DNA of 64,000 nt from assembly GCA_036768485.1 (NCBI GenBank), contig JAVLUZ010000145.1:19904706-19968705 (forward strand), written 5' to 3'. The stretch is from Mermis nigrescens. Taxonomy: Eukaryota; Nematoda; Enoplea; Mermithida; Mermithidae. Shown one piece after another: positions 31,461-64,000 of the stretch. The notes under the pieces are model-generated. The model was not told the DNA's origin. It saw only the letters and a program-made list of their open reading frames with translations, and did not search any database. The position numbers were made by a program, and so were the translations under genes. Position 1 is the stretch's first letter. Each line of letters starts with the position of its first letter.

Positions 31461-32216
31461 CTTACATGCATACATGTAATACGGGCCAGCTTACATAGCT
31501 TACATACATGTATGCTTATACTTGTCGTAGCTCATGCTAACAACGTATATTGTTTTTACTTTCAAAGTCCCGTCCATGAATGTAAATAGGCTGCAAAAGT
31601 AGCCTTAACCTGATCGGCACCTAGGATATTCAGTAAATAGAAGGCAGACTGGACGATAGCATTACTGTGGTTATAAAGAGTGGCCCATTAGGTATCCTTA
31701 CCTTATTTTGTAACACGTTGAATTATTGACTTTGTTGCGTAATATTTTCAGTGTAAGTGAGTGATTTTGCATAAGTTTAGGTACATAGGTATATTTTATC
31801 TAATACTAAGTTTAAAACAACACGGTTGGTACATATTGTGTCCCTTATTGTTTTAAACTTAAGTAGTTCAATTTAATCCTATTCGCACTAAATTTTGCTC
31901 CTTGGAATGATCTTTTTTATGTCCTTTTTTACGAAGTTTTACTTTACCCAATATGACTTCATTGTTTATGATCAGTTCTAAATTCATATATCGAAAAATT
32001 TATTTTAATCCGATTCATGCGTAATTGAATGAATGAGGAATTTTTAGGAAGGTGAATTCATCATTCTTCACCCGAAATGCCGCTACAAGCACATTCACCG
32101 GATTATTTCCCTTGCGACTTCTCCCTTTAGGGCTTATTAAATTAATTTTCCGCATCACACGTGGGCATGGGGTCTGCTGGACTGGACCCCCAGATTACGG
32201 CGGACTCCCTATAGAC

Positions 32217-32420
32217 CACACCTGGGCGTGGGGGGTTGGGGGTATGCACCCCCGAAGAAACCAAAATACCCCCTCCCACCACAATTCAATTTTTGAATTT
32301 TTTTGTTTTTTTGAGAAACGTTGAAAAATGGTGTTTTTCGCCATACCACCATTTTTGAGGCCATTTTTTGACCTTTGAAAAATCTTGCACCCCCCAGAAT
32401 TTCGGTGCTGCCCACGTATG
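32217..32420. mobile_element. hAT-type MITE, family A, copy 3
   Basis: Perfect 8-bp duplication CTATAGAC (32209-32216 and 32421-32428). Ends are CACACCTGGGCG and, inward, CATACGTGGGC. It appears nested in a more diverged relative (about 32158-32502) whose ends read CACACGTGGGCATGG and GCTGCCCTTGTATG. Confidence 0.9.
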
Positions 32421-32778
32421 CTATAGACCCCCAGAATTGAATTTCTATTGCCCTTTTTGGCAATTTTGCCTTATCGGGCCCCTAAAATTCGGTTGCTGCC
32501 CTTGTATGGTCTACATTACGTGACACATTCTAATAGCTTTGAAAAATGAGGCATCCTATCCTATTCGCTTTTAACGAACTTTTGTGAAATTGAGACTTAA
32601 AATTTGGCTCGAATATAGTGAACGTAGTTCAAATGAATTGTTGTCACATTGAAGCGCAATAATATTTTTAACGCATTGTTCAATTTCAATAAAACTATCA
32701 AAAGTTGTCCTCTTAGTCGACTCGTGATAAGGCGAAATTTTATCGAATTTAATTGACAAGTAAAAAAATTATCAGTGT

Positions 32779-34300: not shown

Positions 34301-35347
34301 TGTAAATGTAGGGGCCTGTATCTACAAGAGCGACACAGACCGGCCTAGCATTACCTTCGAGATTTACCTAGGTACGTAGGTACTTAAGTCTGCGCTTAGT
34401 GCTGGCCCTGATCGCGCGGCTCTAATGGCTTTCGATCTTTGGACCCTTAGAGACCTTACGGCTTTGATCCCCTCAGCCCTAATATTGCTGGCTGCTTCTA
34501 TGTCGGGTGATCTCAGCAGCTACGCCCTAAGACCTAAGGCTACCTACCTAGTCTCGGTATGTGCCGCGGAGGTCAGTTGACCTATCTCAAGCTTAAGTTG
34601 TTATTTAACTTATTTTCAATCAGTGCCTGATTCGAAATGTTTTGGTTCCTAATATGTGTAGCACGCTGAACTATGAAAACAACAACAACGAGCTCTATGC
34701 TGATCAATCATCCTTAAAGATTAAATAATAATTTTGATCAATTTTTGGCTTGAGAGATAAATTATGATTTCCAAATAGAATAAACTATCATACAAAATTT
34801 ACCTATCAGTCCACTAAACCGGGAAGAAATCCTTGACGAGTAGATGCCCGACCTAACCCTTGGTATAACCAGAAACCACTGGGTAGGTTTTCTCTATTTT
34901 TATTCGACGTAGAATTCACGGCCTGAAGCCGGACAACAAGCAAAAAGAAAAACGAAAACGTACGGGCTATGTCAACGTACGACTGGCAAACGAAAAGCAA
35001 AAACGCCAGACTAAACTACAACGTTATGTACACTGGCCTCAAGGACCATTACAGTAGATTAAAGAAAGATCAATTTAACGTAATACTGAATCACTTTTAT
35101 CTCAGATCAATTGTTATCGATTACACAAGTGGTATGCATGAAACAATTACTATTATCATACACTTAACTCTGTGCTACCGGACAAGTATCTAAATGTTTT
35201 TTATTATTGAAAATTTGGGGAAATAATGGGAAGACCGAAAGCATAGCCCACAGTGCACTATCATAGATAGCTACTAGTATTGGCTATGTTGTGGCTATCG
35301 CGAACTGCTAAGGCAAGTTCGCCTACCGTGTAACTCTCGCAGTTACA
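34301..35347 (-). repeat. 3' LTR of element 1
   Basis: Direct repeat of 49221-50272. By eye I count roughly thirty differences over about 1.05 kb (about 3%), which implies a moderately old insertion. LTRs are identical when an element inserts, so the differences date the copy. Confidence 0.95.
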
Positions 35348-36337: not shown

Positions 36338-39300
36338 TCAAAATCTTCGTCGTCCTTGTTGTCGTCCGCGTAACGACGCGGTATGGGTGGCGTTGGAGTA
36401 AATAGTTGTTCCGGCGTAAAACCGTAAGTTTGTTTGCGAGAAGGTTCGGCGTGGACGCTGTTGTTGTTGAGTAACAGGCCACGGTTTGGGCAAAAGTGGA
36501 CCGGGTCGAGGTTGTGGCTGATAGCCCCCGGTGGCTGGTTGACTTTGTTCCAACGGTGATCGATACGACTGGTCCCATTGCTGACGTTGACAGGATTGTG
36601 ACCGGCCCCGATGACTTCTGCGCTTCGACTGTGGCGGGTGGCGATATTCATAAGGCTGCTGCTGTCGCGAGCGCGACAGATGACCAGCATTGGCCTGAGA
36701 ATATGCCTTGGAACGCTCACGCGATTCCGTAAATTGCTGCTGTTGCCGCGGTTGGGTCTGCGGTCTTGTGTATTGCTGTACATGCGGTTTTACTTGTGTC
36801 TGTTGTTGTGCTTGTGATTGTGAACGGTGATGCGTTTGCGCATAGCGTTGCCGGGATGACTGCGGTTCTTGCCGCCTTGATCCCTTTTGGCCTAAACGCG
36901 CTTTCAATTTAGCTGCAACTTCAGCTTGAACGAGTCTTCTGACTCGTTGTTTTTCCAAATTCTTCAACCGACGCAAAGTGTGCTTGGATTTAGTATCGTA
37001 AAAACGATTCAATTTGGCTTTATGTTCGTCTTCTGACATATGACAAACTTCTGAAGACTCAGCAAGAGAACCGGCGGCGCGTAATTTTGTCGCATGCCGT
37101 GGCATTTCCGTTGCTAAATTCTCACGATCGCGTTGCTCGATCGTCATGCGTGTTCTAAGCATTGCAATTTGTGCCTCTAAAGAAAGATCGACTTCGGGCA
37201 TATCAAGGCTTGCTGCGGATCCGCTCGGGTCCTGCGAGGATGCCTGTTGCCTTTCTCTGCGAATTTTCTCTAATTTGCCTTGAATACGATGTTTGAGGAA
37301 AAATACAGATTTTTGCTGACCTCTGAAACAATCGAATTGAACGGGAACTTCGAGTGGCGGGTCGGTAGCTAACCGAATTTGCCTAATCATGTTATGTAAA
37401 ACATGAGGACTTTCAATTTGTGCCGTTAAGTCCGGGAATTCCGGAAAAGCCTCACGTGGCGATGGCGTGTAAGATTTGCCAAGGAACGCTACGCGCAACA
37501 TGCGACGCAGCTGCTCGACCATGCGCCAACCTATTGCGGCATTGCCGTAGGCGTACGCAAAGAAATGGAATTTCCTATCCAAGAATTCCAAAAGCGCTGT
37601 AGCGCGCATGACGTCTATTGAAGAAAAGATCATCATGTGTCGATACTCCGAATCATATAATGATTGAAATTCACGGAAAGTATCGAAAATATCAACCATT
37701 TGACGTGTCGATATTAAGATCGGTGCGAGATGATCCTGCGCTGGAGACATTCTGTGCGGATAGAATTCCGGACGCACCTGATGTGTAACGCCATCGATCA
37801 CCTCGCTCGGTGCGTCAAGATGCGGGTGTACGACCAAATACTCGAGCGGAACCTCGTACAACATCATTCTGGTTGTGATAAAGAACCGTATGCGTACAAA
37901 GTATTGGTCGGGGTAAAATAATCGGTTAAACACGCTCATTTTGCTAATAAACCGAGGTGCGGGCTCACAATCGGCATCAGCCAAGGGCTGTGTGATTGTA
38001 GACCACACTAATGGACGCGAGGGTGAGTCAGTCGTAGCCGCATGCTGCAGATGTATCGCATACACTCGGTCGAAGTACACTTGAGCAGCTTCAACCAGCT
38101 GATCGTACAGACGCGTTCCTTCGACTTCACCCAGATAGGAACGTAACTCGTGCAAGACGACTGGCGCAATAATGCACAGTGGTTCGCGCGTCATATTTTC
38201 CATCATGGTGAAAAAATGCTGTACGTAGCGTGAGCGATTTTGTACTCTAGCGCTTTCATTCGCGAACATCTGGTCGCGAATAGCTTGAATGTGCGCAGGT
38301 ATTGCGACTTCCATATTTGATGCTTGACTGTGAGTAACCTGTGGTTGAATAATTGCCACGGTACTAGACATACCCGTCATGGCCATAGGAGCCGTAAAAC
38401 GAGTATCAGGTGCCAACATACCTTGTGACATGGACTGAGACGCGACTTGCGTGTATAATGCTACTTGTGGTACTTCGTGTGCAGCTAGTGTACGTTGTGG
38501 TTGCGGCGGAAAACCAATAATCTCGGTCATGATGACATCAGGATCAGCTTGACGCTCTGCCCCAACCGGCTGAGGAGTCGGTAAAGGTCCAAGCGAACTG
38601 ATACCCAAGGGTGCTTGTTGAGCCGCCGCAAGCGATTGCAAGACAATCGGTTGCGAAATGGTAACAGCCCCTTTTCTAGCCATTGCCACGCGTGTTACAC
38701 ATGGTGGCGTCACGTTAGCTTGTCTTTCCACCTCGGCGTCAGATAACGCCATCACTAAGCGTTTGGGAGATAAATCATCATCCTCGGTGGAGATCGATGG
38801 TTCTACATCAACCATAGGCGAATCGTAGGGGATATCGGTTTGCGAAGAAAATACCGAGGCTGGTGTACTCGAACTAGTTGGTTTTGACTTAGGTTCCATG
38901 TCAGGCGCATTGACCGGGCCTGAAACTGGGTCGGCAATAGTCTGCAAAGCCTGCACTTGTAAATCAGGATTGTCAAATACATTAGCGTGAGCCAACGCTT
39001 CCGTTACTGAGGCAACGGTGGTGGCTGCCGCTATAGCTGCTGGCAGTTGCGGAGCTGTGGCATAAAAGTCCTCAACTCGGATTAACTCTTCGCCATTCGA
39101 ATCAACTTCAGCGTCAGCAGCTGTGCTGGTCGACTGCCCTTGTGGTGGCTTACTAGTCAACAACGGTATGCACACTTTGGCTTTCGGGCCGCTAGCCCTA
39201 ATGTACAATTCATTGCCTACAAAAGAAACCAACATGGGCTTTCTATCGTCAGTAATGCGATTATCTTGCGTGCACCCTTCTATCAATATAAAAACATCGA

Positions 39301-40297
39301 TAGTTATGAGGGCGTCCATTGCTAAATAATGCTGCATGTCCCGAGTTAACGGTAAGCTCCACGCCTGTCCGAAATTCTCAGGCGCGTTCGGATCAATATA
39401 CATGTCAAAAAGGAATTCGGCCAAGCGCTTTAATGAGTGCGACTGCGCTTTAATGCGTAAACGACGCGTAAACGCTCTCGCCAATGGCTGAATATCAATG
39501 AAATTGGCAATGAATGGATCTTTCCAGTGCAGTTTATTGCGAATTTCTGCATCCGAAATAGCCAAAATTTCCTCAAAAGTTGGCCCGTAAACATGGAAAT
39601 ACGCAAGTTGGTCTTGCGTTGGGTCATAACAAACCATATACACGTTAGGTAAACGCGTTTTGAGCAACTGGTGAAGCCCAAACGGAGGTTGCGGGAACTT
39701 CGCCAAGTCCCAACAGAACACGTGGCTGTTCGCGCTCGCAACTTGGACGTAGCGTACGAATGGGCCATGGAGGTCCTGGTAAGTGGGACATAGTTGCTGA
39801 AAACGCAAGTCCCAGGTCTTATAACCTCTGCCTTTCCTGTCATTAACAAATTCAGAGTCGTAGCCTAAAAATAAAGTGCCATTTGTCATATTTGATGGCT
39901 GGATTAACGCCAAAATGGCGCCAAACGACTTCTGGTCATTGGAGATTATGACGGTGGGTAGAAGTCTGTTCTTTGGTACGCGAGGGGTTACCAAAGGAAA
40001 TCTACCAAGCCGATTCTCCCACCAGAGTTGTTGGTCGTTAATACGCTTTCTGTGATTTGCGATTTTATGTGTTGCTTTATGTTTTATCCATTTTGCGGTA
40101 AGTGACTCTAAACCGCCAACGCGACTATCGTCATTTTGCGGCAGCGGGTCTGGAATAACCAAGCCTCGCTCTAAAGCCATATTAGTCAAAGCCGAACGAA
40201 ATTCATCTAGGGACGCAGGATCACGCCCCTCAAATTTGCATCGGCGACCAGCTGCCTCCAGCAATGCCTCCTTGCTTGGGGTACCTTGTGCAGCCAT
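36338..40297 (-). CDS. Third ORF of element 1: DEDDy exonuclease-like protein, 1319 aa
   Basis: Residues about 140-345 look like a DEDDy 3'-5' exonuclease: GYDSEF (D147, E149), then VCYDPTQDQ (D225), FIDIQPLARAF (D268), SLKRLAEFLFDMYI and QHYLAMDA (Y324, D328), the YxxxD motif III. RNase D, WRN, EXD and Egalitarian belong to this class and trim RNA or DNA 3' ends. Residues 346-660 are low-complexity Ser/Thr/Pro/Ala-rich. Residues 661-1015 look folded but are unrecognised. Residues 1030-1140 are basic and helical, and 1140-1319 Gln/Arg-rich, so nucleic-acid binding is plausible. The ATG lies inside the pol 3' end, in another frame. No signal peptide or env-type membrane segment is seen. The frame is open although gag-pol is wrecked. 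Confidence 0.8.
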   Translation of the reverse strand: MAAQGTPSKEALLEAAGRRCKFEGRDPASLDEFRSALTNMALERGLVIPDPLPQNDDSRVGGLESLTAKWIKHKATHKIANHRKRINDQQLWWENRLGRFPLVTPRVPKNRLLPTVIISNDQKSFGAILALIQPSNMTNGTLFLGYDSEFVNDRKGRGYKTWDLRFQQLCPTYQDLHGPFVRYVQVASANSHVFCWDLAKFPQPPFGLHQLLKTRLPNVYMVCYDPTQDQLAYFHVYGPTFEEILAISDAEIRNKLHWKDPFIANFIDIQPLARAFTRRLRIKAQSHSLKRLAEFLFDMYIDPNAPENFGQAWSLPLTRDMQHYLAMDALITIDVFILIEGCTQDNRITDDRKPMLVSFVGNELYIRASGPKAKVCIPLLTSKPPQGQSTSTAADAEVDSNGEELIRVEDFYATAPQLPAAIAAATTVASVTEALAHANVFDNPDLQVQALQTIADPVSGPVNAPDMEPKSKPTSSSTPASVFSSQTDIPYDSPMVDVEPSISTEDDDLSPKRLVMALSDAEVERQANVTPPCVTRVAMARKGAVTISQPIVLQSLAAAQQAPLGISSLGPLPTPQPVGAERQADPDVIMTEIIGFPPQPQRTLAAHEVPQVALYTQVASQSMSQGMLAPDTRFTAPMAMTGMSSTVAIIQPQVTHSQASNMEVAIPAHIQAIRDQMFANESARVQNRSRYVQHFFTMMENMTREPLCIIAPVVLHELRSYLGEVEGTRLYDQLVEAAQVYFDRVYAIHLQHAATTDSPSRPLVWSTITQPLADADCEPAPRFISKMSVFNRLFYPDQYFVRIRFFITTRMMLYEVPLEYLVVHPHLDAPSEVIDGVTHQVRPEFYPHRMSPAQDHLAPILISTRQMVDIFDTFREFQSLYDSEYRHMMIFSSIDVMRATALLEFLDRKFHFFAYAYGNAAIGWRMVEQLRRMLRVAFLGKSYTPSPREAFPEFPDLTAQIESPHVLHNMIRQIRLATDPPLEVPVQFDCFRGQQKSVFFLKHRIQGKLEKIRRERQQASSQDPSGSAASLDMPEVDLSLEAQIAMLRTRMTIEQRDRENLATEMPRHATKLRAAGSLAESSEVCHMSEDEHKAKLNRFYDTKSKHTLRRLKNLEKQRVRRLVQAEVAAKLKARLGQKGSRRQEPQSSRQRYAQTHHRSQSQAQQQTQVKPHVQQYTRPQTQPRQQQQFTESRERSKAYSQANAGHLSRSRQQQPYEYRHPPQSKRRSHRGRSQSCQRQQWDQSYRSPLEQSQPATGGYQPQPRPGPLLPKPWPVTQQQQRPRRTFSQTNLRFYAGTTIYSNATHTASLRGRQQGRRRF

Positions 40298-41011
40298 GGG
40301 TCTGCAAAAGGAAAAACATTAGATAATGGTACGGCATGTGCTGTTTTAGAGCCATTTAATAAACGTATAGGCGCGCAGTCCTTAGCTTTTTGTTCCCTGC
40401 CTGGTAAATCCTCAAAACTTATGACTACTGCCGGGGCAAGAGGGCGATGTGGTAATTTTATCAACACAAAATCGCCAGGGATGTATGCGTGTTTTTCCAC
40501 AATCAAATCAGAATAAGGAAGTTTAGGCTCAGGCAGAAGTCTATTCCTGTGAACGTGATGAATGATGAGAGGGTTATATATAGACATATGCGATTTTCGC
40601 AGTTTCAGGCGTAGGTAAGTCAATAATTCGGTATGGACCAACACGCTTGGGTGATAGTTTACCGATTTCAGGTTGAATGACTGAGGTATTATTGAGATAG
40701 ACTATATCCGAGAGATTGAAATTTGTGTGTGTTACGGACTTGTCATATTGCGATTTTTGCTGCTTACGCGCTTGAGTTAAGTTTTGAGACGCGATTTCAT
40801 GCAGATCCTGCAAAGTCAGCTTTAAATCAATGACATATTTTCCCGCAACAGATGGTAAGTTCGGATTTATTATGAAGTCATTTATGAGCAAGGTGTCAAG
40901 TGGAAATGCTGGTTCAGCGACCATAAAGCATTTTGAAAGGAGATATATTAGTTGATGATTGTGGAGTCGTAGCGGTATGCAAATAATGCGAAGGGTAAAA
41001 ATTGTTCCCAA
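40207..41011 (-). pseudogene. Element 1 integrase C-terminal region with PWWP-like end
   Basis: The frame 41011-40574 contains KLSPKRVGPYRI (GPY/F-type module) and lies in a different frame from 40644-40207, so at least one frameshift separates them near 40600. The latter has PGDFVLIKLPHRPLAPAVVI (about 40400-40490), resembling a PWWP fold (GDxVxAKxxGxPxWPAxV). The pol frame overlaps the third ORF by 91 nt before stopping. The same arrangement is intact in element 2. Confidence 0.75.
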
Positions 41012-41051
41012 TCATACTGGGATCGTGCACTCAGCTTAGACAAACCATCAA

Positions 41052-42243
41052 TCAATGTACAATTATAACGTTCCACCAACCCATCACACTGGGGCTGATA
41101 TGGGGTTGTAAATATTTTTGAACGTTTAATAGTTTACAAACTTCCGAAATAAGGGTAGATGTAAAATTTGACCCCTGATCTGTCAAAAATTTCTTGGGGA
41201 CTCCATAACGTGGTATAATTTCTCTTAGTAATAAATTTGCAATAGTTGTTGCTTTTATGTCAGAAACAGCAAAAGCTTCCACGTATTTTGTAAAATAATC
41301 CATAAAAACCACAATTTGGTCATTTCCGGAGGCAGATTGTGGCATATGCAAACAATCGCACGCAATGAGTTCAAAGGGCGCGGATACTTTGATTGGTTGC
41401 AACGGAACGGATGTGGAATTTAATGTGACCCTACGTTGTAAGCACACATCACAATTCCTACACCATGCGATCACATCATTTTCCATACGCGGCCACCAAT
41501 AACCACACATGGGCGTGGGGGGGGGTTCGGGAGGGTATGCACCCCTCAGAAGTTGAAATACCCCCCCCCCAGAAATCAAAATACCCCGCCCCCCAGAAAA
41601 AATTTTTCTTTGCTATTTTAGCAATTTTTTGATGCCATTGGATAGATCTTGATGAGAAACGTCGAAAAATGGTGTTTTTTTCGCCATACCACCATTTTTA
41701 AGGCCATTTTTGACCTTTAAAAATTTTTTCACCCCCCCCCCCAGAAATTTTTTCACCCCCCCAGAATTTTGGTGCTGCCCACCTATGCCAATAACGCATT
41801 TGTATGGCGGGCAAGATATTGCGCGATGAAAAATGAGCTCCAAAAATAGAGTCATGAAATTCCGTTAAAATAAAACGACGCAAAGATTTGGGTATGACTA
41901 TTTGATGAACGACAGTTGGTGAACGCTTAGGTTGAAAATGACGAAAAAGTACATCGTTTATGAGAAAAAATTCGTCACGATATTTTTTCGTTGTTAAGTC
42001 ATTCAATGCAATGCGAATTTTATGCAATTCGTCATCTGCACGTTGCTCAGCGAGTAAACGCGCAGGTGGTAGCATTTCAGTTTTTTCAGCATCGGTAAGT
42101 AACAGGCGTTCACAAAATGTAGGTGGTTTAGAATTAGTAGGATTGGTTTGCGCAGTAGGATTGTTATTTTGCGCATTTGGATGATTAATTGGTGCAATAG
42201 GCGTGTTATCGCGCTGATCGGTCCGGTGGAACCGATTCATCAT
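41052..42243 (-). pseudogene. Element 1 integrase zinc-binding and catalytic core, broken
   Basis: The zinc-binding HHCC module (FHDSIFGAH ... CRNCDVC) is split by MITE A (41504-41787, duplication CCAATAAC). The core shows the first two catalytic aspartates (ACDCLHM; FLTDQGSNF). A one-base frameshift at about 41105-41115 then moves the DGLVER glutamate region out of frame. Element 2 has the intact equivalent at 61704-62984. Confidence 0.85.
41504..41787. mobile_element. hAT-type MITE, family A, copy 4 (in element 1 integrase)
   Basis: Perfect 8-bp duplication CCAATAAC (41496-41503 and 41788-41795). Ends are CACACATGGGCG and, inward from the right, CATAGGTGGGCAGC. It splits the integrase frame between Tyr-Trp and Trp codons. 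Confidence 0.92.
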
Positions 42244-46420: not shown

Positions 46421-48650
46421 TGGGTATTATGATTAGCATTATTAGACGTTTCTTGCCTTTGACGCGTGAAACATTCCTCATAAATGTGACCTATGCGCTT
46501 GCAAAAGGTGCAATATTTACGAGAAGAATTTTCTGGTTTCTCGAAGAATTTTCTGGTTTCTCAGCACGCGATGAGCGATGAAACGTTCGATGACGTGAAC
46601 GATTTGTATCATTTTGGTTAGATGCGTGAGGAGTATCTTTAGGTAGTACGCTGCCTACTGGAGCAGCTGTTACCGATACGTAAGGCGTTACTGCCTTTTT
46701 ATCCTCAAATTCTTTATTAGCAAATTCAGCGCTTAGCGCATTGTCCAAAAATTCAGCTAATGATGCTCTAGGTTTTTTATGATATGCCTCTTTTGAAATG
46801 TGTGGTAATAAACCTTGTTTTAGTTGATGTCGCATTAAATTATTGAAATGTGGCGAGTCAACTTCAAGGTAAGGATCAGATTTAATTAACTCTTTGCGAA
46901 GCGAGAGGTAATAAACTTTAACTGATTCATTAGGCTGCTGTTTGTGTGACAAAAAACGATTAAAGAGCGCACCGGTGTTCATAGGACAAAATTCGGTTAT
47001 TAGCGCTTGCTTCATTTTTGAATAAGATTGTTGTATATCAGCGAGTAACGAATGGTATAAACGCAAAACATAAGGGTCAAGAAATCCAGTAGCGAATTTT
47101 AAACAATCAGCTTTGTCAATATCATAGGTATTGGCAAGCGATTTAAATTCTGCAAAATATGCCTTTATATCTGATTTATCGCCGTCAAAAAATTTTTTAT
47201 TTGCAATTGCAAATTGCATCTGCTGCAAAAATGGTCCGCGATTCAAGGAATCAGCGAGACGTGAGTCACCACGCGAGCTTTCAGATGAAGAACCTGAACT
47301 ATGCCTATGACGTCGTCTGCGCGATCGAGATTTGCGACGCGAGCGACGACTGCGCGGGCGATCATAACTATTAGATGAGCTTTCGTCAGAAAATTTGACA
47401 TGTTTTCTCCTACTAGATGATTCAGGTAGGGATGCAGGTTCATTTTGCAAATTTGCAGATTCATTATTAATGCCAGATAAATTTATCTCAACCAGTTGCA
47501 TTTCGATATTAGAAGAATGCAAAATAGGATTATTAGGTGGTATTTCCACATTTATAGGATTAGGTACATAATTATTGGCTAAGATTTCGCTTTGAGGTGG
47601 AAAATACTGCAGCGGTGGTGGATTTAATTGCTGCTGCGAATTTGTAGTGGAAGGATTAGGTACGAAAGAAGGCGCGTTACGATTTAATGGCAGCGAAGGC
47701 CGAGATCGCGACGTTTGCGAAATTGGTACCGACGGCTGCGAAATCGTAGGTATATTTTCCGAAAAACCCGAGTTTTGCACTGATTGCAAACCCGTGTTTA
47801 CAGAATTCTGTGACAAATTAGATATCTCAGGCGCGCGATTCGTACAACTTTGAGAGATATTTTCTGGAACAGTTTCCGAAGGTGAGCGTGAATTCGATGC
47901 TCTGTTGCTAGTAGACAACAGTGAAGATGCACGATGCGTACTTTGCGCACGATTCGCACTTTGCGCATTAAATTCAGAAAAATTTGCGCTATCGATTGAG
48001 TGGTTAACGCGCTCAGATGAATTATTCTCTATGCGATTCAAAACTGGTTGGGGTTTAAGCATAGTGCTTAGCTCCAGACGCAGTTTACGCATTTCATCCG
48101 CATTTTCCCTTTTATCTTGATCAACGCGCGTAGAAAGGTCCGAAAATTGCAAATGAATAGCTTGTAGCGCTTTCAAAATAAGATCATTAGTCACATTAGC
48201 ATTAGCACGCTCTTTGTCGGCATTTATGCAATGACTATGATTACTTTCTACGTCAGAATCGGGATTTTCGCGCTCCGAACTGGTTTCAGGATTATTTGCC
48301 GTGTTAAGAGTAGTCGTATTATCAATCATTGTATGATTAGATGAATTGTCAATATTAGGGTCCGATCTAGTTATCGAAGTTTGATTAATGCGCGCTTGCA
48401 CAGTAGTCAATAACAGTTCATCTTCAGACTGTGTATTGCTCGCGGCATGTAGTGACGCGGGTAATTTATCATTATTCGCCTTAGTAGTTACGTCTCTCGT
48501 AATTGTGTCATTACTCGCAGAATTACACGCGCTATTAGAGTCAACAGGCGCGGTAGGTAATTGGCGAGCTGAAGTAGGTGGCGTAGAAGGTTTTTTCAAT
48601 TTAGCGGGCGGTGTCCGCAAAACCTTTTTCCTGCCATTTTTAGGTGTCAA
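46421..48650 (-). pseudogene. Element 1 gag
   Basis: The 719-codon ORF (46491-48650) begins MTPKNGRKKVLRTPP, colinear with element 2. The first half is Ser/Asn-rich. A retrotransposon capsid-like domain lies at residues about 470-650 (GPFLQQMQFAIANKKFFDGD ... PNESVKVYYLSLR). A 20-bp tandem duplication (near 46519-46558) shifts the frame so that the CX2CX4HX4C zinc knuckle (about 46470-46512) falls out of frame. Confidence 0.88.
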
Positions 48651-49220: not shown

Positions 49221-50272
49221 TGTAAATGTAGGGGCCTGTATCTACAAGAGCGACACAGACCGGCCTAGCATTACCTTCGAGATTTACCTAGGTACGTAGG
49301 TACTTAAGTCTGCGCTTAGTGCTGGCCCCGATCGCGCGGCTCTGAATGGCTTTCGATCTTTGGACCCTTAGAGACCTTACGGCTTCGATCCCCTCAGCCC
49401 TAATATTGCTGGCTGCTTCTATGTCGGGTGATCTCAGCAGCTACGCCCTAAGACCTAAGGCTACCTACCTAGTCTCGGAATTTGCCGCGGAGGTCAGTTG
49501 ACCTATCTCAAGCTCAAGTTGTTTATTTAACTTATTTTCAATCAGTGCCTGATTCGAAATGTTTTGGTTCCTAATATGTGTAGCACGCTGAACTATGAAA
49601 ACAACAACAACGAGCTCTATGCTGATCAATCATCCTTAAAGATTAAATAATAATTTTGATCAATTTTTGGCTTGAGAGATAAATTATGATTTCCAAATAG
49701 AATAAACTATCATACGAAATTTACCTATCAGTCCACTAAGATGGGAAGAAATCCTCGACGAGTAGATGCCCGACCTAACCCTCGGTATAACCAAAAACCA
49801 CTGGGTAGGTTTTCTCTATTTTAATTCAACGATAGAATTCACGGCCTGAAGCCGGACAACAAGCAAAAAGAAAACGAAAACGTACGGACTATATCAACGT
49901 ACGACTGGCAAACGAAAAAGCAAAAACGCCAGACTAAACTACAACGTTAAGTACACTGGCCTCAAGGACCATTACAGTAAATTAAACAAAGATCAATTTA
50001 ACGTAATACTGAATAAGCTTTTATCTCAGATCAATTGTTATCGATTACACAAGCGGTATGCATGAAACAATTACTATTATCATACACTTAACTCTATGCT
50101 ACCGGACAAGTATCTAAATGTTTTTTATTATTGAAAATTTGGGGAAATAATGGGAAGACCGAAGGCATAGCCCACAGTGCACTATCATCGATAGCTACTA
50201 GTATTGGCTATGTTATGGCTATCGCGAACTGCTAAGGCAGGTTCGCCTACACGTGTAACTCTCGCAGTTACA
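49221..50272 (-). repeat. 5' LTR of element 1
   Basis: 1052 bp, matching 34301-35347 throughout, with TGTAA/TTACA ends. It should carry the promoter; no clear TATA box was picked out. Confidence 0.95.
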
Positions 50273-50375: not shown

Positions 50376-51723
50376 TAATTTAAAATTCTTTGGACTTTTT
50401 TTGCATTACGGTGATTCGAATGCCTTAACAATTCAGTCAGTCGGCAAAGAGCAGTTCCTTAGCACCCGCCTTGCATCAACTAATTCATGGATTTGTAGAT
50501 AGTGTATCTACACGAGCCGTTACATGTACGGCCTTTGCGCACCTTAGTGCGCCAATTCAGACCATCCGGTCGTGTGTTTCCACTTTGGCGACCCAGCCAT
50601 ATTTTCAGATCGACGATATGACATGCGGAGGCATTCCGACCACGCAGTGTCAATTGGTTGGACTCTTGTCGCTAGGTGTCGCGAGGGATACTATGATGCG
50701 ACCTTTTTACTGTGGAACACCCCACAAGTCCCCTATCACTTTTCACATTTAAAACATAGGCGACATGACCGCTATTCACGTTGAGCCTGTGCGGAGACCT
50801 GGAAAATCTATGTGCAAGTAGCACACAATTTTTGTCATAAACACATTTTACAATAATTTCTTCTTCTATTACTGTGGGCCAATCCCCCTTAGGATTATTG
50901 GTTGGTTGGTGCCAGTTTGGCTTTTGCTTTTGCGGCGTGTCATCTTCGACTATATTAGCGCCATTTATTGTTCATTGTTTTAATTCGGTAAAAGCACAAA
51001 AATCCACTGCTTAGGGGTGCATTATATCGCAAGCAGTCAGGAATTGGGATCAGGCCGGCCATAGCTTTATTTCTTGCCGGATTTCGTTGGGTAAAGTTTT
51101 TATTTATCGTTTTGTGCAAAATTCATAATTCCTTTTTCAATCCTAAAATCTATAAAAATTATTACATAATTTTTATAGTAGATGACAGCCCGGAATAGAG
51201 CTCTTTGTTGTTGTGTTTTAAGTACAGAGTGCTGTTGGAACCAGAAATCGTAAGTAGTTTCGCCATAGGTAATCTAGTGCGAAACCCTTTCAATTCTTTT
51301 CGCGAAAAATTACTCTTTTGGTCTAAAAAGGTCTAAGGACCTAGGGCGAATACCGGGATTATCTAATTACCCCTGGTTAAGATCTGCGGTCGGCATCTCC
51401 TTCCCTTTTTCTCCATAGGTACCGGACCGATTACGTCCGTGGAGATTTTAGGTAGTTTGTATTCAGGGTCAGCTTGGAAGAGTGCAGGTTTTTACCGCAG
51501 CTTCTTGACCAGCGCTAGGTGTAGCATAGGTACTTAGGTAAATCCCGAAGGTACTTTCGGGGGTTCGCTGCTTTCGTAGTTGTTGTGTGTTGGGTATCTT
51601 CTCTGACGGCGTGCTGTCAGTTTATTTATCCGTACATACTTCAAGTGCTGAATCAGCCAACTCGTTTGCGCGCGCTAAGATACTCCAATAACTCGAAGGC
51701 GGACGGAACCCACCTAAGTTACA
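50376..51723 (+). repeat. Host DNA, then 5' LTR of element 2 (left border not resolved)
   Basis: The LTR right border is at 51723 (...CACCTAAGTTACA), by analogy with element 1, whose LTR also ends TTACA right before a TGGA..TTCCC primer site. The block AGGTACTTAGGTAAATCCCG at 51530 resembles the end region of the element 1 LTR (CTAGGTAAATCTCG). The 3' LTR is outside the window, so the left border cannot be set. The 50471-50752 ORF has no domain. Confidence 0.6.
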
Positions 51724-52193: not shown

Positions 52194-54572
52194 ATGGGTG
52201 GTAAGAAAATTTTACGTACCCCTCCAGCTAAAAAGGTGCCGCCCCTAGCCCGTCCTGCGCGCCCAGTACAGCCTGATCAAACCAGTTCTTCGGCGAGCGA
52301 TAACACTATTTTACCCCCTTCGGTACATAATACCTCTGTTATCCCTTCTGATAACGAGTCTACTACTGGCAGTGTGCATTCCGGAACCGGTAATTCTGCT
52401 GATACGCAAATTGAAGTAAATTCTGACGCAACGATCGTTAATAATGATCTTAACTTGCGCGCGAGTAACGATGATAATCAGACGGAAAACGAAGCCGTTT
52501 TACCTAGTCGAACTTTTGATGTGGAAAGTAATGCATCTGAAAAGCAAAATGAGGATGAAACTCGTCCTAATTCGGCAAATTCTGACCGAATTCTTTCGAC
52601 TATTCTTGAGACTATTCAGAAAATGCAGTTTCAGCATGCGCAAGAATTGCGCCAAATTCGTGAGGAACTTAATAACCGGTCTACGGCTACGTTTTCTGCT
52701 CGCCCTGAGGCTAGTCAGTCTTTGCGAGTACATAACAACGAAAACGTGATTAATGACGTGCCTATCGAGTTACCGAAACGGCGTGTCGAACAGACGGTAA
52801 ATAACGAAACCGAGTTTGATAATTCATCGCCTGTCATTCGGCCTCCGATTAATAATCCTAAGCCTAAGGTTACACTCGCGTCTGAAAGAACATCTGTGCC
52901 TATTTTACCTATGAGTGATCGTATGCCTGTTGATTTTAGATCGTCGTGTATGCGTGAGCAGCGTGTGCAAAACCCTCTTTCTGCGGATAATTTATCTACT
53001 TTTGCGCATTCTTCACAGCACGCGTCTAATCAGCAAAGTGTTGAAAACGCGCCTACTTTTTCAGAATTTTTGCAGCGCCCTTTAAATCAGCTAGCGCCTG
53101 AATTTGTGCCTAATACTGTAAATAATACGCAACATCATTCTGTAAACCCGCCGCCCTTGCAGTATTTTCCTTCTAACGCGGAAAGCGTGCCCATGCAGCA
53201 CGCGTCGCATTTCAGGAGCAATAATTTTTCAGCGCACGATAATTTAGCCAATCCTAATGACGAATCCATGCCAATCAGGGACAATATAGTCGCGCCAGCC
53301 AGCCAGCGCCATGTCAGATTTTCAGATGAGGACTCTAGCTCTTCGCAGCAGGAAGATTCGCATCGCTCGCGTCGCAGCGAAAGTTCGCGTTGCAGTTCTT
53401 GTCGCTCGCGCCATAATTCAGATTCTTCGTCTTCTTCGCGCGATAAATCATCTGTTGCTGAAGCTATTAATCGCGGCCCTTTCATACAGCAAATGCATAT
53501 AGCTGTAGCTGCTAGGAAATCTTTTCAGGGTGAAAAAACCGATATTCGGAAATTTTTCAGCGAATTTGAAAGACTGGCAAAAATATATAAAATTGATAAA
53601 AAAGATCGAGCTGAATTTGTTTCATCATTTTTCGACGACTATGCGTTAAATTTGTATGAAGCGTTACCTCAAGAAGTGCGTAATTCTTACACTAAGACTA
53701 AGTACGCTATGATCGCGGAATTTCGTCCTCTCGATCACGATACGTTATATGACCACTTTCTTGACCGTAAGCAACAGCCCAATGAGTCTGTTCAAGCTTA
53801 CTATCTTGCGCTTCACAAACAATTAAGGCGCGCTAGACCTCATATTGAAACCGACTCTGAGCAATTTAACGAAATGCTTCGCCATCAATTAAAGCGCGGT
53901 ATGTTACCTGAAATTTCAACTGCAGCCTATCAACGCGCGCCTGAAGCTGAGTTACATGAATTTTTGCATAATGCTAAATGCGCAGAGTATGCAGCGCGCC
54001 AACTTGTAGCGAAAAAAGCGCCAACGCCCTATGTCTCGACCATTGCCAATCCTGCCACCGGTGCAATTCCTAAGGAATCTGTGCGTTTTTCTAATAATGC
54101 TGATTCTGATCGTTCGCGCAATAAGACGTTTTCTCGTTCAAAACGCCCCGAAAATGAGCAATCTTCAGCGCGTAAATTTTGCGATTTTTGTAAGCGCACG
54201 GGTCATGTTGAAGAACAATGTTTTAAAAAGATGAGACAGCGCAAACTTGACGAAAATGCACAGCAAGCGAAATTCGAACCCGCCGCGCGTCAACGTAGTC
54301 AGTCGCGTTCTTGGAATAGTCGTAATGTCGCTCATCGTCGCGCTCAAATAATAATAATCGACCTCAGTCTAAGCCTAGGTATCGCGATCAAAGCCAAAAT
54401 CGTCAACCTATCCCTCAAAGTTCTGACGCACGTTTTGATTCTAGGCGCTCGTGTCCAATTTTTAGGCAAAACTATAACGATTACGCGCCAAATTATCGCC
54501 AAAACTATCAAAATCAGCCCTATGATAATCGCATGCAATCGTATGACTATCGCCAAAATAATCCTTATGTGA
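52194..54572 (+). pseudogene. Element 2 gag (frameshifted near its end)
   Basis: It starts MGGKKILRTPPAKKV, matching the start of element 1 gag. Ser/Asn-rich N-terminal half, Arg-Ser patch (residues about 385-420), capsid-like domain (GPFIQQMHIAVAARKSFQGE ... PNESVQAYYLALHKQL), then an intact zinc knuckle CDFCKRTGHVEEQC (about 54180-54225). At an AAT-AAT-AAT run near 54348 the RS/Asn-rich continuation moves to another frame, so the last part of the printed ORF is out of frame. A further frameshift lies near 54656. Confidence 0.87.
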
Positions 54573-58193: not shown

Positions 58194-58366
58194 TACTAGC
58201 AAAGAAAAATGCTCCGATGGAACAAAAAAGATGAATATACTTGGAATTGTGGATTATTATGGATGTAAAAGGAGGGGACTAGGAAAAATCTACCTAAAGT
58301 CGGAAAATCTGCTAAAAATCACACTTTCTCTAAGCAACGCAAAAAATCGATGTATATTCTGCGGCC
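58194..58366 (-). repeat. Inverted copy of the Helitron-like 3' end, left arm
   Basis: 173 bp nearly identical (one mismatch seen by eye) to the reverse complement of 58788-58959. It starts TACTAGCAAAG. The spacer 58367-58787 has no gene; the 58638-58823 ORF has only a hydrophobic stretch. Confidence 0.85.
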
Positions 58367-58787
58367 TCTAAAAAAGTGTCTTTTTTAAATAATGTTCGAA
58401 GTTTCAGATAAGAGTGTATAAACGAAATCTATCAAGGTTACTTTTTTAAATTGCTGGCACCTGATTGATAGAAAACTAAGAGGTATTGTATTTAAAGTTG
58501 TTTTGTTTTATGAGCATTATAGCAAGCAAAGCAGGAGCCGATTGATTAGTGCACACAATCGTTTCGGGCATGCTAGTGTATCTACATTAAGTCTGTTTCA
58601 AGTCAACTTACGTGTTTCCTACTGTTTTTAACCAACCATGTCTTCAATTGTCTTCGATGTTTGCTATTTCATTCAATTGGCTTGGAAGACTGTTAGTTTA
58701 CTTAATATCATTTCCCATAGCTACTGCATAGCTAACGTGCTGCTGTTTCAATCATTGTTATGGTTGAATATTTATTTTAATCTGTTG

Positions 58788-58959
58788 GCCGCAGAATATA
58801 CATCGATTTTTTGCGTTGCTTAGAGAAAGTGTGATTTTTAGCAGATTTTCCGACTTTAGGTAGATTTTTCCTAGTCCCCTCCTTTTACATCCATAATAAT
58901 CCACAATTCCAAGTATATTCATCTTTTTTGTTCAATCGGAGCATTTTTCTTTGCTAGTA
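58788..58959 (+). repeat. Helitron-like 3' end, right arm of the inverted repeat
   Basis: Pairs with 58194-58366. It ends CTTTGCTAG|T at the insertion border. A single-stranded copy would fold into a stem of about 170 bp. Confidence 0.85.
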
Positions 58960-60076: not shown

Positions 60077-60335
60077 CATACGTGGGCAGCAAGAAAATTC
60101 TGGGGGAGTGCAAGATTTTTTTGAAGGTCGAAAAATGGCCTTAAAAATGGTGGTATGGCAATAAAAACACCATTTTTCGACGTTTCTCATCAAGCACTAT
60201 CCATTGGCATCAAAATATTGCGAAAAAACGAAAAAAAATTTTCAAAAATTGAATTCTGGGGGGGTATTTTTGATTTCTGGGGGTATTTTGGTTTCTGGGG
60301 GTGCATACCCCCAAACCCCCCACGCCCAGAGTGTG
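60077..60335. mobile_element. hAT-type MITE, family A, copy 5 (in element 2 RT)
   Basis: Perfect 8-bp duplication GCCTTATG (60069-60076 and 60336-60343). Ends are CATACGTGGGCAGC and, inward from the right, CACACTCTGGGCGTGG. Excising it with one duplication copy restores the frame as judged from element 1. An ORF reads through it by chance from 60155. Confidence 0.93.
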
Positions 60336-61690
60336 GCCTTATGGAGCTTGTTCTCGCTGGTTTAAATTGGAAAACCTGTCTCGTATATATCGACGATATA
60401 ATTGTGTTTTCGCGCACGTTTTCAGAGCATCTTAAAAATCTAGAAGATGTCTTTCGCGCGCTTCAAAACGCAAACTTAAGGGTTAAACCCGAAAAATGTC
60501 ATCTAGCCCATGCAGAAGTCCAATTTTTGGGTCATCGCATAAGTTCGCTAGGTATTGCTCCTGACTTGACTAAAATTGCAGATTTGATCAATTTTCCAGT
60601 GCCAAAAACGGTGAAAGCTTTACAGAAATTTCTTGGTCTCGTTCAATGGTTCAAAAAATTTGTAAAAGATCTCGCGAAAATCGCGAAACCTCTTTTTCGT
60701 TTATTAAGAAAAGACACGGAATTTCTTTGGACTGAAGAACATCAAAAAGCTTTTCAAACGTTAAAAGATGCCTTCACTTCACCACCGATTTTGCAGTTGC
60801 CTAAGTTCGATAATGACCATCAATTCATCCTGACAACCGACACAAGCAATTATGCGCTAGGTGCCATTCTTACGCAGAAACATCTTCCATCTAAAAATCG
60901 TTTCATTCTTGGTTATGCTAGCCGTGTTTTAAACTCGGCCAAATGTAACTATGCCACTTCTGAGAAGGAAGCTTTAGCGGTTGTCTGGGCAATTAAGCAT
61001 TATAGGCATTATCTCTATGGCAAAAAATTCATCGTGGAAACAGATCATCAGGCGCTTACTTGGCTCGTAAATGTAAAAGATCCTTCCAGTCGTTTAAGAC
61101 GCTGGGGTTTAAAATTACAAGAATACGAGTATGAGGTTGTTTATGTACCAGGCGCATATAACTGCGCTGCGGACTTATTATCGCGTCATCCTAAGTACGA
61201 TCGCGACGAACAACGTTATAAACTCGAACGTAAACCCGTTGCTAACGTCGCTAACCTCGAATCCGAAGCGTCTGAGTCTGACGATGACAACAAACCACCT
61301 GATATGAGACAACAAACCATCGCGCCAAAACAGCAAGCTGCGCAAAACGATCATCCGCCAGTTTTTTATGAACGCATCACTTTATCTGAAGCTGAAAAAG
61401 CAGAAATTCTGTCGCCTGCTAAACTACTTGCTGAACAACGTCAAGATGAAGAGTTAAACAAAATTCGTGAATCGCTCAACGACTTAACAACACGTAAATA
61501 TCGCGACGAATTTTTCTTGCTAAATAAGATTCTTTATCGCAGATTTCAGCCTAAGCGTGCAGCTAATACCATTCATCAGCTTGTCATTCCCAAATCGCTT
61601 CGTAGTTTCATCTTAACCGAATTTCATGATTCCATCTTTGGAGCCCATTTCTCCGCGCTGAAAAATCTTACCCGCCATTCAGCTTCGTTA
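60336..61690 (+). pseudogene. Element 2 RT palm/thumb, RNase H and integrase N-terminus
   Basis: It contains VYIDDIIVFSRTF (intact catalytic YIDD), CHLAHAEVQFLGHRIS, RNase H (FILTTDTSNYALGAIL, ATSEKEALAVVWAIKHYRHY, VETDHQALTW) and the integrase zinc module start (FHDSIFGAH). A frameshift near 61655-61685 precedes RYWWPRMEN. It is much better preserved than in element 1. Confidence 0.9.
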
Positions 61691-61703
61691 CTGGTGGCCT
61701 AGA

Positions 61704-62984
61704 ATGGAGAATGATGTGCTTGCATGGTGTAAGAATTGTGAGGTGTGTTTGCAGCGTAAGGTAGCAAATAACCCCACCACCATACCTCTGCAGCCCATCG
61801 AAGTTTCAGCACCGTTTGAGTTAATCGCGTGTGATTGTCTCCATATGCCTCGTTCGACGTCCGGGAATGATCAAATCGTTGTTTTCATGGACTATTTTAC
61901 TAAGTATGTTGAAGCGTTTGCAGTGTCTGATATAAAAGCGGTCACCATAGCAAACCTATTATTGCACGAAGTAATTCCTAGACACGGCGTTCCAAAGCGA
62001 TTTTTAACTGATCAAGGCTCAAATTTCACATCAGCGCTAATTTCCGAAGTTTGCAAATTACTAAGTGTTCAAAAAGTTTTCACAACCCCTTATCATCCTC
62101 AGTGTGATGGGTTAGTTGAACGGTATAATCGAACACTCATCGATGGACTTTCTAAACTAAGCGCGAGAAATCAATACGACTGGGAACAATTTTTGCCCTT
62201 TGCTTTATTCGCGTATCGCGCAACGCCGCAGTCATCTACAAATATTTCGCCATTTGAGATGCTGTACGGTCGTGAACCTTCTTTTCCACTCGATATACAG
62301 CTTTTAAGCGATCTCGCGTTGAATCCTAATATACCTAACATCGCTGAAAAATATCTTGCTGATCTGAAACTTACGCTTCTTAACTTACACGATATTGCTA
62401 GCGAAAATCTTGCTAAAGCGCGTAACCATCAGAAAAAGCAGTATGACAAAACAACGCGCGAAAGTAAATTTGCAGTTGACGATATTGTATATCTCAACAA
62501 TAAAGCGGTAATTCAGCCTGAAATTGGAAAACTTTCACCTAAACAATTAGGTCCGTATCGCATCAAAGCCTTGCCAACGCCTGAAACTGCGCGCATCATC
62601 TATTTGCATAATCCTTTAATCGAACATGTAGTGCACCGTAATCGCCTCTTACCTGCCCCAAAGTTGCCCTATTCCGATCTCATTGCCGAAAAGTACGCAT
62701 ACGTACCCGGTGATTTTGTTTTAGTTAAGCTACCGCGTCGACCTGTGTGTCCGGCAGTAGTTATAACTTTTGAGGAATTAGCGGGCCGGGAAAGGAATAT
62801 GAGGGAGTGTGCGCCTATTCGTTTGTTAATTGGTGCTAAATCGGCACATGCCGTGCCCTTAACTAACGTTACACCTTTTGCAGAGCCATGGCTGAGCAGC
62901 GTGCCCCAACAGAAGAGGACGTCGTGGACCGAGATCGTCCGACGTTTAGCCTCGGGAACAACAACGATGCCGCCCATTTCCTAG
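61704..62984 (+). CDS. Element 2 integrase with GPY/F module and PWWP-like end
   Basis: The frame is open for 426 codons; the protein would really begin upstream in pol. Zinc pair CKNCEVC; catalytic triad in ACDCLHM, FLTDQGSNF and CDGLVERYNRTL (DDE type); then SPFEMLYGREPSFPLD and KLSPKQLGPYRI, a GPY/F-like module. The end, PGDFVLVKLPRRPVCPAVVI (about 62706-62765), resembles a PWWP chromatin-reader motif and may guide integration. It inserts element cDNA into chromosomal DNA. It overlaps the third ORF by 97 nt. Confidence 0.9.
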   Translation: MENDVLAWCKNCEVCLQRKVANNPTTIPLQPIEVSAPFELIACDCLHMPRSTSGNDQIVVFMDYFTKYVEAFAVSDIKAVTIANLLLHEVIPRHGVPKRFLTDQGSNFTSALISEVCKLLSVQKVFTTPYHPQCDGLVERYNRTLIDGLSKLSARNQYDWEQFLPFALFAYRATPQSSTNISPFEMLYGREPSFPLDIQLLSDLALNPNIPNIAEKYLADLKLTLLNLHDIASENLAKARNHQKKQYDKTTRESKFAVDDIVYLNNKAVIQPEIGKLSPKQLGPYRIKALPTPETARIIYLHNPLIEHVVHRNRLLPAPKLPYSDLIAEKYAYVPGDFVLVKLPRRPVCPAVVITFEELAGRERNMRECAPIRLLIGAKSAHAVPLTNVTPFAEPWLSSVPQQKRTSWTEIVRRLASGTTTMPPIS

Positions 62985-64000
62985 TAGCGCTCGAAGCTGC
63001 GGCTGCTGCAAAGCAGTATCGCGCAGAGGTGTGCCCTTTACAGTTCCTTTACTTCGAAAACGACGAACACGTGACTCCCAATCTTCGCGAACCATCACAC
63101 CACGAAACGCCACACCACTACGATCGTATCTATGCCCAACGTAAGTGGTGGCTGGCAACGATGGACCGTATCCCGTTGTCAGCGCCATATGTGCCCGAAA
63201 ACGCCATTCGACGTACCGTAATGGTCGAAACACACGAACAGTCTTATAACGCGATACGAACACTTTTCAGGTCGTCTAATCGTCTGAACAGCCAGTACTT
63301 TTTTGGCTTCGACTCCGAGCATGTTAACGACCGTTTGTTCATGCCCTACCGCGTTTGGGAACGATATTGGCAACAACTCGATCCCAACTACATGCAGGCC
63401 AACGGTCCTTTTGTTCGATACATTCAGATCGCCGACGTTCGTGGCCATGTTTTTGTTTGGGATATTTCTAGGTTTCCACAGCCCCCGTTTGGGCTGGCGG
63501 AGTTGCTTGAGACACAGCTGCGAGATGTTTTTCTAGCCTGCCATGATCCTAGTAACAATAAGATTGCCTATTTTCACGTCTACGGCCCACATCGCGCAGA
63601 TGTAGTGGCCTATTTACAAAATCGTGATAGCTTTCCTCCACCGCGTTCGGTTTTCAGGGCCAATATTTTAGATACGCTGGTGATGAGCCGCTTTTTCATG
63701 GTCGAACATCGTATTGATGCCGGAAATCATCGCCTAAAAACGTTGGCAGCTTTCTTCTTCGATATGCAGCCGGATTCTTTGGCAGTCACGTGGATTGGCC
63801 AGGCATGGAACATGCCTTTGACGGGTCCTATGTTACGGTATCTCGTTTTAGACCCGATTTTCTCGCTCGATGTCTACATTCTTATCGATACGTATTCGCC
63901 AAACATGAGTCAAATTTCTCCTCGTCGTGTTCCGCCAGGTTTTACTTTTGAGGGTGACGAACGTTCCGTCCAGGCAGCGCCGCCGCCGGAGCCGTTATAC
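62888..64000 (+). CDS. Third ORF of element 2: DEDDy exonuclease-like protein (incomplete)
   Basis: Open for 371 codons to the window end with no stop. Motifs match element 1: FFGFDSEHVND (D142, E144), FLACHDPSNN (D220), ANILDTLVMSRFF (D262), HRLKTLAAFFFDMQ, and LRYLVLDPI (Y318, D322). Spacing is 78, 42 and 60 residues, versus 78, 43 and 60 in element 1. Shared blocks outside the acidic residues include GPFVRY, FPQPPFGL, AYFHVYGP and GQAW..PLT. The ATG lies inside the pol 3' end in the +2 frame, as in element 1. A nuclease acting on the element's own nucleic acids or on host small RNAs is inference. Confidence 0.8.
   Translation, partial: MAEQRAPTEEDVVDRDRPTFSLGNNNDAAHFLVALEAAAAAKQYRAEVCPLQFLYFENDEHVTPNLREPSHHETPHHYDRIYAQRKWWLATMDRIPLSAPYVPENAIRRTVMVETHEQSYNAIRTLFRSSNRLNSQYFFGFDSEHVNDRLFMPYRVWERYWQQLDPNYMQANGPFVRYIQIADVRGHVFVWDISRFPQPPFGLAELLETQLRDVFLACHDPSNNKIAYFHVYGPHRADVVAYLQNRDSFPPPRSVFRANILDTLVMSRFFMVEHRIDAGNHRLKTLAAFFFDMQPDSLAVTWIGQAWNMPLTGPMLRYLVLDPIFSLDVYILIDTYSPNMSQISPRRVPPGFTFEGDERSVQAAPPPEPLY

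Follow-up and report, generated by a model that had tools for sequence, protein, structure and literature searches.

Third open reading frames (ORF3s) that encode DEDDy exonucleases have been described in the Juno, Vesta and Athena elements of bdelloid rotifers, where they were acquired at least twice, and a pool of DEDDy ORFs drawn on by diverse retroelements was suggested (Rodriguez, Kenefick and Arkhipova 2017, PMC5408684). In a 2019 review, the accessory genes attributed to Terminons include DEDDy exonucleases (PMC6431247), and a further paper counts a DnaQ-like exonuclease among the accessory domains already known, with PMC5408684 one of three papers cited (PMC6338049); the accessible text of Ustyantsev 2017 (PMC5348765), cited beside that statement, contains neither “exonuclease” nor “DnaQ.” Here we analyze a stretch of 64,000 nucleotides (nt) of the Mermis nigrescens genome (the window), which lies in contig C51 (JAVLUZ010000145.1) and holds two Ty3/gypsy long terminal repeat (LTR) retrotransposons, elements 1 and 2. 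ORF3 is the third gene of these elements, and its product consists of a DEDDy 3'-5' exonuclease domain, a linker, a second domain and a basic tail. A first-pass annotation of the window had proposed a DEDDy exonuclease in the env position of element 2 in an arthropod genome; the host is instead a nematode that parasitizes arthropods. The features concerned are these:

62888..64000, plus strand: ORF3 of element 2, an open frame of 371 codons that runs off the window end
63182..63937, plus strand: DEDDy exonuclease domain of element 2 (residues 99-350), placed by residue positions, alignments and model
63311, 63317, 63557, 63671, 63839 and 63851, plus strand: D142, E144, N224, D262, Y318 and D322 of that domain
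62874..62883, plus strand: conserved ccttttgcag just before the ORF3 ATG, resembling a 3' splice site; cttttgcag also in element 1 and in locus L032
36338..40297, minus strand: ORF3 of element 1, open over 1319 residues, with exonuclease domain, linker, second conserved domain and basic tail
39230..39985, minus strand: DEDDy domain of element 1, with D147, E149, D229, D268, Y324 and D328 (own numbering)

The 371-codon frame after the integrase of element 2 was confirmed; it starts inside the integrase ORF (61704-62984) in another frame and overlaps its end by 97 nt. Past the window end, a frameshift near codon 580 splits this copy, and L051, another copy of the element-2 family, is open over 1297 codons. 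The ORF3s of elements 1 and 2 are homologous (40% identity over 305 residues). Open copies share one architecture: the exonuclease domain, a linker of variable sequence, a second conserved region (element 1 residues 522-1183, aligning at 34-35% with other subfamilies) and a basic tail rich in Arg, Ser, Pro and Gln. The second conserved domain, at about residues 680-1000 of element 1, matches nothing in Pfam and nothing notable in NCBIfam. Together, the domain order and the predicted fold speak for a protein other than a retroviral env.

Three lines of evidence favor a DEDDy exonuclease fold at the env position in Ty3/gypsy elements: a profile link to clear PF01612 relatives, a structure model and integrase adjacency in the genome. 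Against the Pfam exonuclease family PF01612, the element 1 domain scored 16.5 bits (E 0.0077), below the curated 23.6, which was passed by the related loci L052 (41.3) and L055 (28.9); in NCBIfam, element 2 gave one sub-threshold DEDD row (E 0.17). In profile-profile comparison, the ORFs that accompany the integrase type of element 2 (E-type) aligned with those of the L052 and PWWP types from motif I to YxxxD, with a probability of 99.0 and an E of 3.9e-18, and the L052/PWWP-type profile matched WRN, EXD2 and a MUT-7 homolog in the PDB. The AlphaFold2 (AF2) model of the window's element 2 domain, built on an 18-row alignment, reached a predicted local distance difference test score (pLDDT) of 70.9 and a predicted template modelling score (pTM) of 0.76; the alignment includes clear PF01612 relatives, of which the model is not independent. 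This model has the DnaQ/RNase D fold: all 50 structures listed in its structural comparison are, by title, DEDD-type exonucleases, exosome complexes or family-A polymerases, matching at 8-21% identity, with Nibbler/MUT-7 exonucleases among the nearest folds. All 18 alignment rows have 31 or 42 residues between motif I and the GxF block, a long insert common to the three exonuclease types. This spacing appears to be shorter in cellular DEDDy enzymes.

Several results weigh against this assignment. The element 2 ORF3 alone found no Pfam family, so that its DEDDy assignment leans on bridging relatives, and E-type profiles alone found no DEDDy chain in the PDB; by single sequence or E-type profile, the search there returned only two epimerases at E 0.26 or worse. 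With two sequences only, AF2 gave a pLDDT of 32.1. In a set of 5.8 billion proteins no relative was found at E 0.01, at 1, or at 0.001 among at most 7999 candidates, nor did scans of viral and prokaryote contigs find one at the thresholds used. The lack of any DEDD profile match, which the first-pass annotation had named as refuting its proposal, holds for the window ORF by itself and does not hold for its family.

The gene belongs to large families. In the genome searched (523,963,438 bases in 860 contigs), the element 2 ORF3 has at least 118 matches (from scoring 110 of 2192 candidates); of the 118 listed, about 58 are stop-free in the matched stretch, as are 23 of 30 extracted loci. The element 1 domain has at least 111 matches (111 of 2666 candidates scored), each 92-100% identical over residues 1-370, and among the 111 listed, 109 are without a stop and 26 have open frames of at least 1371 residues. 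A third subfamily, L032 and its kin, is 64% identical to element 2 across the 371 residues. All nine E-type loci inspected, a sample drawn from 51 loci, have the integrase upstream and on the strand of the ORF; among them, the L051 piece holds only the last 69 integrase residues.

DEDDy-type ORFs accompany three integrase types in all: the E-type, the L052-type and the PWWP-type. L052 has an open integrase ORF (36% identical to the element 2 integrase over 319 residues), a 458-nt gap filled with stops, and then the DEDDy ORF; L055 and L068 have an integrase ending in a PWWP domain, followed in L055 by the DEDDy ORF. A PF01612 profile search of the genome gave 79 matches, 46 of them above the cut-off. 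Upstream on the same strand, an L052-type integrase lies within 2.5 kb of 17 of the 79 places (15 loci, two of them split) and a PWWP integrase within 0.75 kb of 25, so that 42 places at 40 loci have one or the other; for the above-cut-off matches the counts are 11 and 22. These intersections of coordinates cover all 87 L052-type integrase rows and the best 35 of 129 PWWP rows, and several loci are identical copies. The remaining 37 places include exons of an Rrp6-like host gene, two copies of the element-1 family, and L058 and L059, which have an ORF like that of L052 and whose integrase is absent from the integrase list. For L052-type rows 14-24 and 26-85 of 87, the 6 kb downstream lacks any PF01612 match; three such rows are partial copies (89% identical), and most of the rest are 49-63% identical. 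Because so many rows are without a downstream match, the ORF may be absent from part of the L052-type clade, though PF01612 would mostly miss a diverged ORF of the E-type.

Two side observations concern these loci. L067 2-421 (C147:10800-11220) matches PF01612 at 9e-09 with neither of the searched integrase types upstream, and may be a host gene or another element type. In L068 3-1616 (C128:604150-605765) and L055 2-406, a single open pol frame encodes a Ty3/gypsy-like integrase with a PWWP domain at its C-terminus (PF00855, 2.8e-11). The host factor LEDGF recognizes histone marks through such a domain. By analogy with chromodomains, the integrase PWWP may be a built-in targeting module; our literature search found no paper devoted to a PWWP-integrase element, as judged by titles.

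These associations bear on whether the ORF could be a host-derived passenger, or a domesticated exonuclease that merely lies beside transposons. Host DEDDy genes do occur in the genome, for example the Rrp6-like gene at C728 (named from a reading of its translated exons). However, the element 1 ORF lies after pol and its integrase and between the LTRs, an arrangement as in Juno/Vesta-type elements; its domain recurs in the 111 or more near-identical copies, and the ORFs adjoin three integrase types. We consider a passenger most improbable.

We next consider the active site. Among E-type rows (45-47 per site), residue 142 is Asp in 45 and Asn in 2, residue 144 is Glu in 47, residue 262 is Asp in 47, and residues 318 and 322 are Tyr and Asp in 45 each; the rows are not independent, since L001 and L031 are the window copy and three locus pairs are identical. 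The five positions given in the first-pass annotation (D142, E144, D262, Y318 and D322) are as claimed and nearly fixed. The D-x-E of motif I (D142/E144) is invariant in the 18-row alignment, and the motif III Asp (D262) and Y-x3-D (Y318, D322) are kept. Motif II is another matter. The annotation had named D220, which is ruled out, as alignments with better-conserved relatives and with WRN place motif II at residue 224, which the model locates close to the beginning of the helix that follows the fourth strand. D238 (Asp in 36 of 45 rows, Glu in 9) was also tried and rejected: it falls in a later helix in the model, and the WRN alignment gives 224. In the window copy residue 224 is Asn (AAT, 63557-63559), contrary to the intact active site that had been implied. 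The proposal of a DEDDy exonuclease in the env position is supported as to fold and location, with an incomplete catalytic set in this copy. The gene family does have the motif II Asp: element 1 has it (D229), as does every one of the 20 copies sampled from the 111 of its family, and across the 18-row alignment it hardly varies. Across E-type rows residue 224 is Asp in 28 of 46, Asn in 17 and Ile in 1, and among distinct element-2-type copies Asn occurs in 11 of 27. The element-2 family thus mixes copies of both kinds, and catalysis is probably impaired in the window copy, judging from its sequence. An unusual rate of Asp-to-Asn change was rejected as well: site 224 needs 6 parsimony steps, but so many or more are needed by 13 other sites, that is, by 14 of 149, and its rate is not exceptional.

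Given the frequency of Asn224, part of one family appears to persist or spread while lacking the motif II Asp, an argument against catalysis being strictly required. The product could alternatively be a non-catalytic RNA-binding protein, its fold serving as an RNA-binding or scaffold module for RNA transport, export or packaging, in a CERV-like manner. Egalitarian retains the exonuclease fold as such a module. The same use of the fold is described for EXD1 and Maelstrom (PMC5408684). Nevertheless, the other acidic residues and the Tyr are nearly invariant, and the motif II Asp is conserved in the sampled element-1 family and the 18 rows as given above. We take this alternative seriously but think it unlikely.

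Substitution patterns point to constraint. For the exonuclease domain, L051 and L032 differ by 0.169 per nonsynonymous site (pN) and 0.726 per synonymous site (pS), an omega of about 0.07 with pS near saturation, and the domain is under purifying selection. Elsewhere in ORF3 the same pair has a pN of 0.27 in the second domain, 0.34 in the linker and 0.45 in the tail, where part of the L032 sequence is possibly out of frame. Between element 2 and L032, the reverse transcriptase (RT)-RNase H and integrase regions have a pN of 0.05 and a pS of 0.58; in ORF3, pN is 0.16-0.19 from residue 121 on and pS about 0.70-0.76 from residue 61 on. ORF3 is thus constrained, yet within the domain its protein changes at roughly three times the pace of pol, and more quickly still elsewhere; because its pS is also higher than that of pol, rate and history are not separable.

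Such fast protein change, together with the Nibbler/MUT-7 exonucleases among the closest folds and the carriage of the ORF by several integrase types, would suit an enzyme of counter-defense, one that breaks down or trims small RNAs of the host or rivals the host's MUT-7/Nibbler-type trimming; this overlaps the reading we prefer and fixes its substrate. Fast change equally fits a weakly constrained accessory gene, however, and the higher pS means that the difference may partly reflect history or composition. Nothing in our analysis ties ORF3 to small RNAs, and for bdelloids the cited account reports no unambiguous link to copy number and doubts a lasting self-limiting role (PMC5408684). We regard counter-defense as a minority possibility. 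A broader version, for which the insert after motif I common to three types and the near-identical copies of the element 1 domain are the grounds, is that a DEDDy exonuclease specific to transposons is common to the Ty3/gypsy elements of mermithids, or was acquired by them repeatedly, and that it is translated from an env-like spliced mRNA and counters silencing as an RNase that attacks small RNAs of the worm; this strikes us as slightly more doubtful still.

How ORF3 is expressed can be approached from the sequence ahead of its ATG. In elements 1 and 2 and L032, cttttgcag stands four or five bases ahead of a conserved ATGGC, and in L052 tttcctag stands directly ahead of the ATG. Because the 458-nt gap of L052 is full of stops, its ORF3 is unreachable from pol by a simple frameshift. 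From these motifs, we infer that ORF3 is expressed from a spliced subgenomic mRNA, as is CERV of the Caenorhabditis elegans element Cer1, whose acceptors are TTTCAG or TTGCAG (PMC10309623). There are points on the other side: among further starts of the L052 or PWWP type, L053, L054 and L055 show no comparable acceptor directly at the ATG, L057 has ttttttttgtag ahead of an upstream ATG, and in elements 1 and 2 and L032 the acceptor-like stretch doubles as pol coding sequence, so that its conservation may have another cause. The same gap bears on whether the enzyme acts on cDNA in reverse transcription, as a proofreading or 3'-end exonuclease. The fold is indeed common to polymerase proofreading domains, but the exonuclease lies outside the RT frame and, in L052, is not in the polyprotein given the gap that separates it from pol; we find this role very unlikely.

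Based on these findings, we propose that the ORF3 product is an RNA 3' exonuclease acting in the element's RNA-protein complexes, on the element's own RNA or on host small RNA, and we hold this to be reasonably probable. The acceptor at the ORF3 ATG would give a spliced subgenomic mRNA, from which the ORF3 protein would be translated. In copies with all ligands, the domain would be a metal-dependent RNA 3' exonuclease, and the second domain and basic tail may hold it in the element's RNA-protein complexes, where it could trim or degrade RNA 3' ends. The likeliest substrates would be two: the element's own RNAs, in 3' maturation or the removal of aberrant RNA, and small RNAs that the host directs at the element. 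Since nematode small-RNA pathways, which include the exonuclease MUT-7, are well studied (PMC7946423) and Mermis mRNA-seq exists (PMC10989877), the use of ORF3 becomes testable.

The remaining parts of the two elements are as follows:

49221..50272, minus strand: 5' LTR of element 1
46491..48650, minus strand: gag of element 1 (PF03732, 8.3e-05, 23.2 bits, slightly below the curated cut-off of 24.1)
34301..35347, minus strand: 3' LTR of element 1, 96.9% identical to the 5' LTR
50494..50756, plus strand: putative 5' LTR of element 2 (TG...CA, 263 nt), with an identical stretch beyond the window at L031 9024-9286
52194..54572, plus strand: gag of element 2 (PF03732, 7.9e-08)
60155..61702, plus strand: RNase H and the end of RT in the pol of element 2; a dispersed repeat makes up the 5' part of the frame
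61704..62984, plus strand: integrase part of pol of element 2

Element 2 has the Ty3/gypsy gene order of gag, RT-RNase H and integrase, and the RT-RNase H and integrase of element 1 were recognized by similarity to it. Element 1 is flanked by GATT on both sides. Beyond the window, L031 9930-10000 is an uninterrupted copy of the element 1 target sequence with a single GATT, which is consistent with a 4-bp duplication for element 1 and means that sequence adjoining element 2 on one side is found again on the other; no matching target-site duplication was seen at element 2's 263-nt identical LTR pair. In the element 1 integrase (40300-41600, minus strand) there are several frame changes, while the 3.96-kb ORF3 stays open; as the Mermis assembly is nanopore-based (PMC10989877), errors and decay are indistinguishable there. 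Between gag and the protease-RT region, element 2 contains an inverted repeat (58194-58366 and 58787-58959; 173 nt, 99% complementary). Dispersed copies of a repeat of roughly 250 nt occur at 20735-20980, 30752-31036, 32205-32421, 41503-41788 and 60078-60335, in the pol regions of both elements and elsewhere. Outside the elements, exon-like pieces at 2689-2922, 11265-11546 and 15838-16191 show LIM-type cysteine patterns and include a homeobox-like piece; they look like parts of a LIM-homeobox host gene.

Compared with known systems, the Mermis gene resembles the cellular enzymes WRN, RNase D, EXD2, MUT-7/Nibbler and Rrp6 in its fold, DxE, motif II (as a family), motif III and YxxxD, at 8-21% identity in the rows of the structural comparison. 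CERV of Cer1 is likewise an accessory gene of a nematode Ty3/gypsy element, made from a spliced mRNA with a similar acceptor, but it has H, M and pseudo-GTPase G domains and an N-terminal sequence in common with GAG, and the word “exonuclease” is absent from the accessible text of that paper (PMC10309623). The likeness to Juno/Vesta and Athena/Terminon is drawn from their published description: in both cases an RNase D-like DEDDy ORF follows pol in LTR elements, in more than one lineage, with activity inferred. Here, however, the host is a nematode, one type has a PWWP integrase and another an ORF3 of about 1300 residues with a second domain, and the motif II Asp is present in most rows with Asn in the window copy, whereas in bdelloids DEDD is reported to have changed to DEED (PMC5408684). 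An exonuclease in an LTR element is therefore less novel than the first-pass annotation implied, the kind itself being known; what is new is the host, the integrase types, the two-domain protein of about 1300 residues and the likely spliced mRNA. In the sources as accessible, DEDDy ORF3s in LTR elements had been described for bdelloid rotifers only (PMC5408684, PMC6431247), and our literature search found no nematode LTR element with one, judged by titles and the starts of abstracts. That a nematode has such ORFs beside three integrase types, and in large numbers of near-identical copies, marks them as a recurrent retrotransposon gene and not a rotifer oddity.
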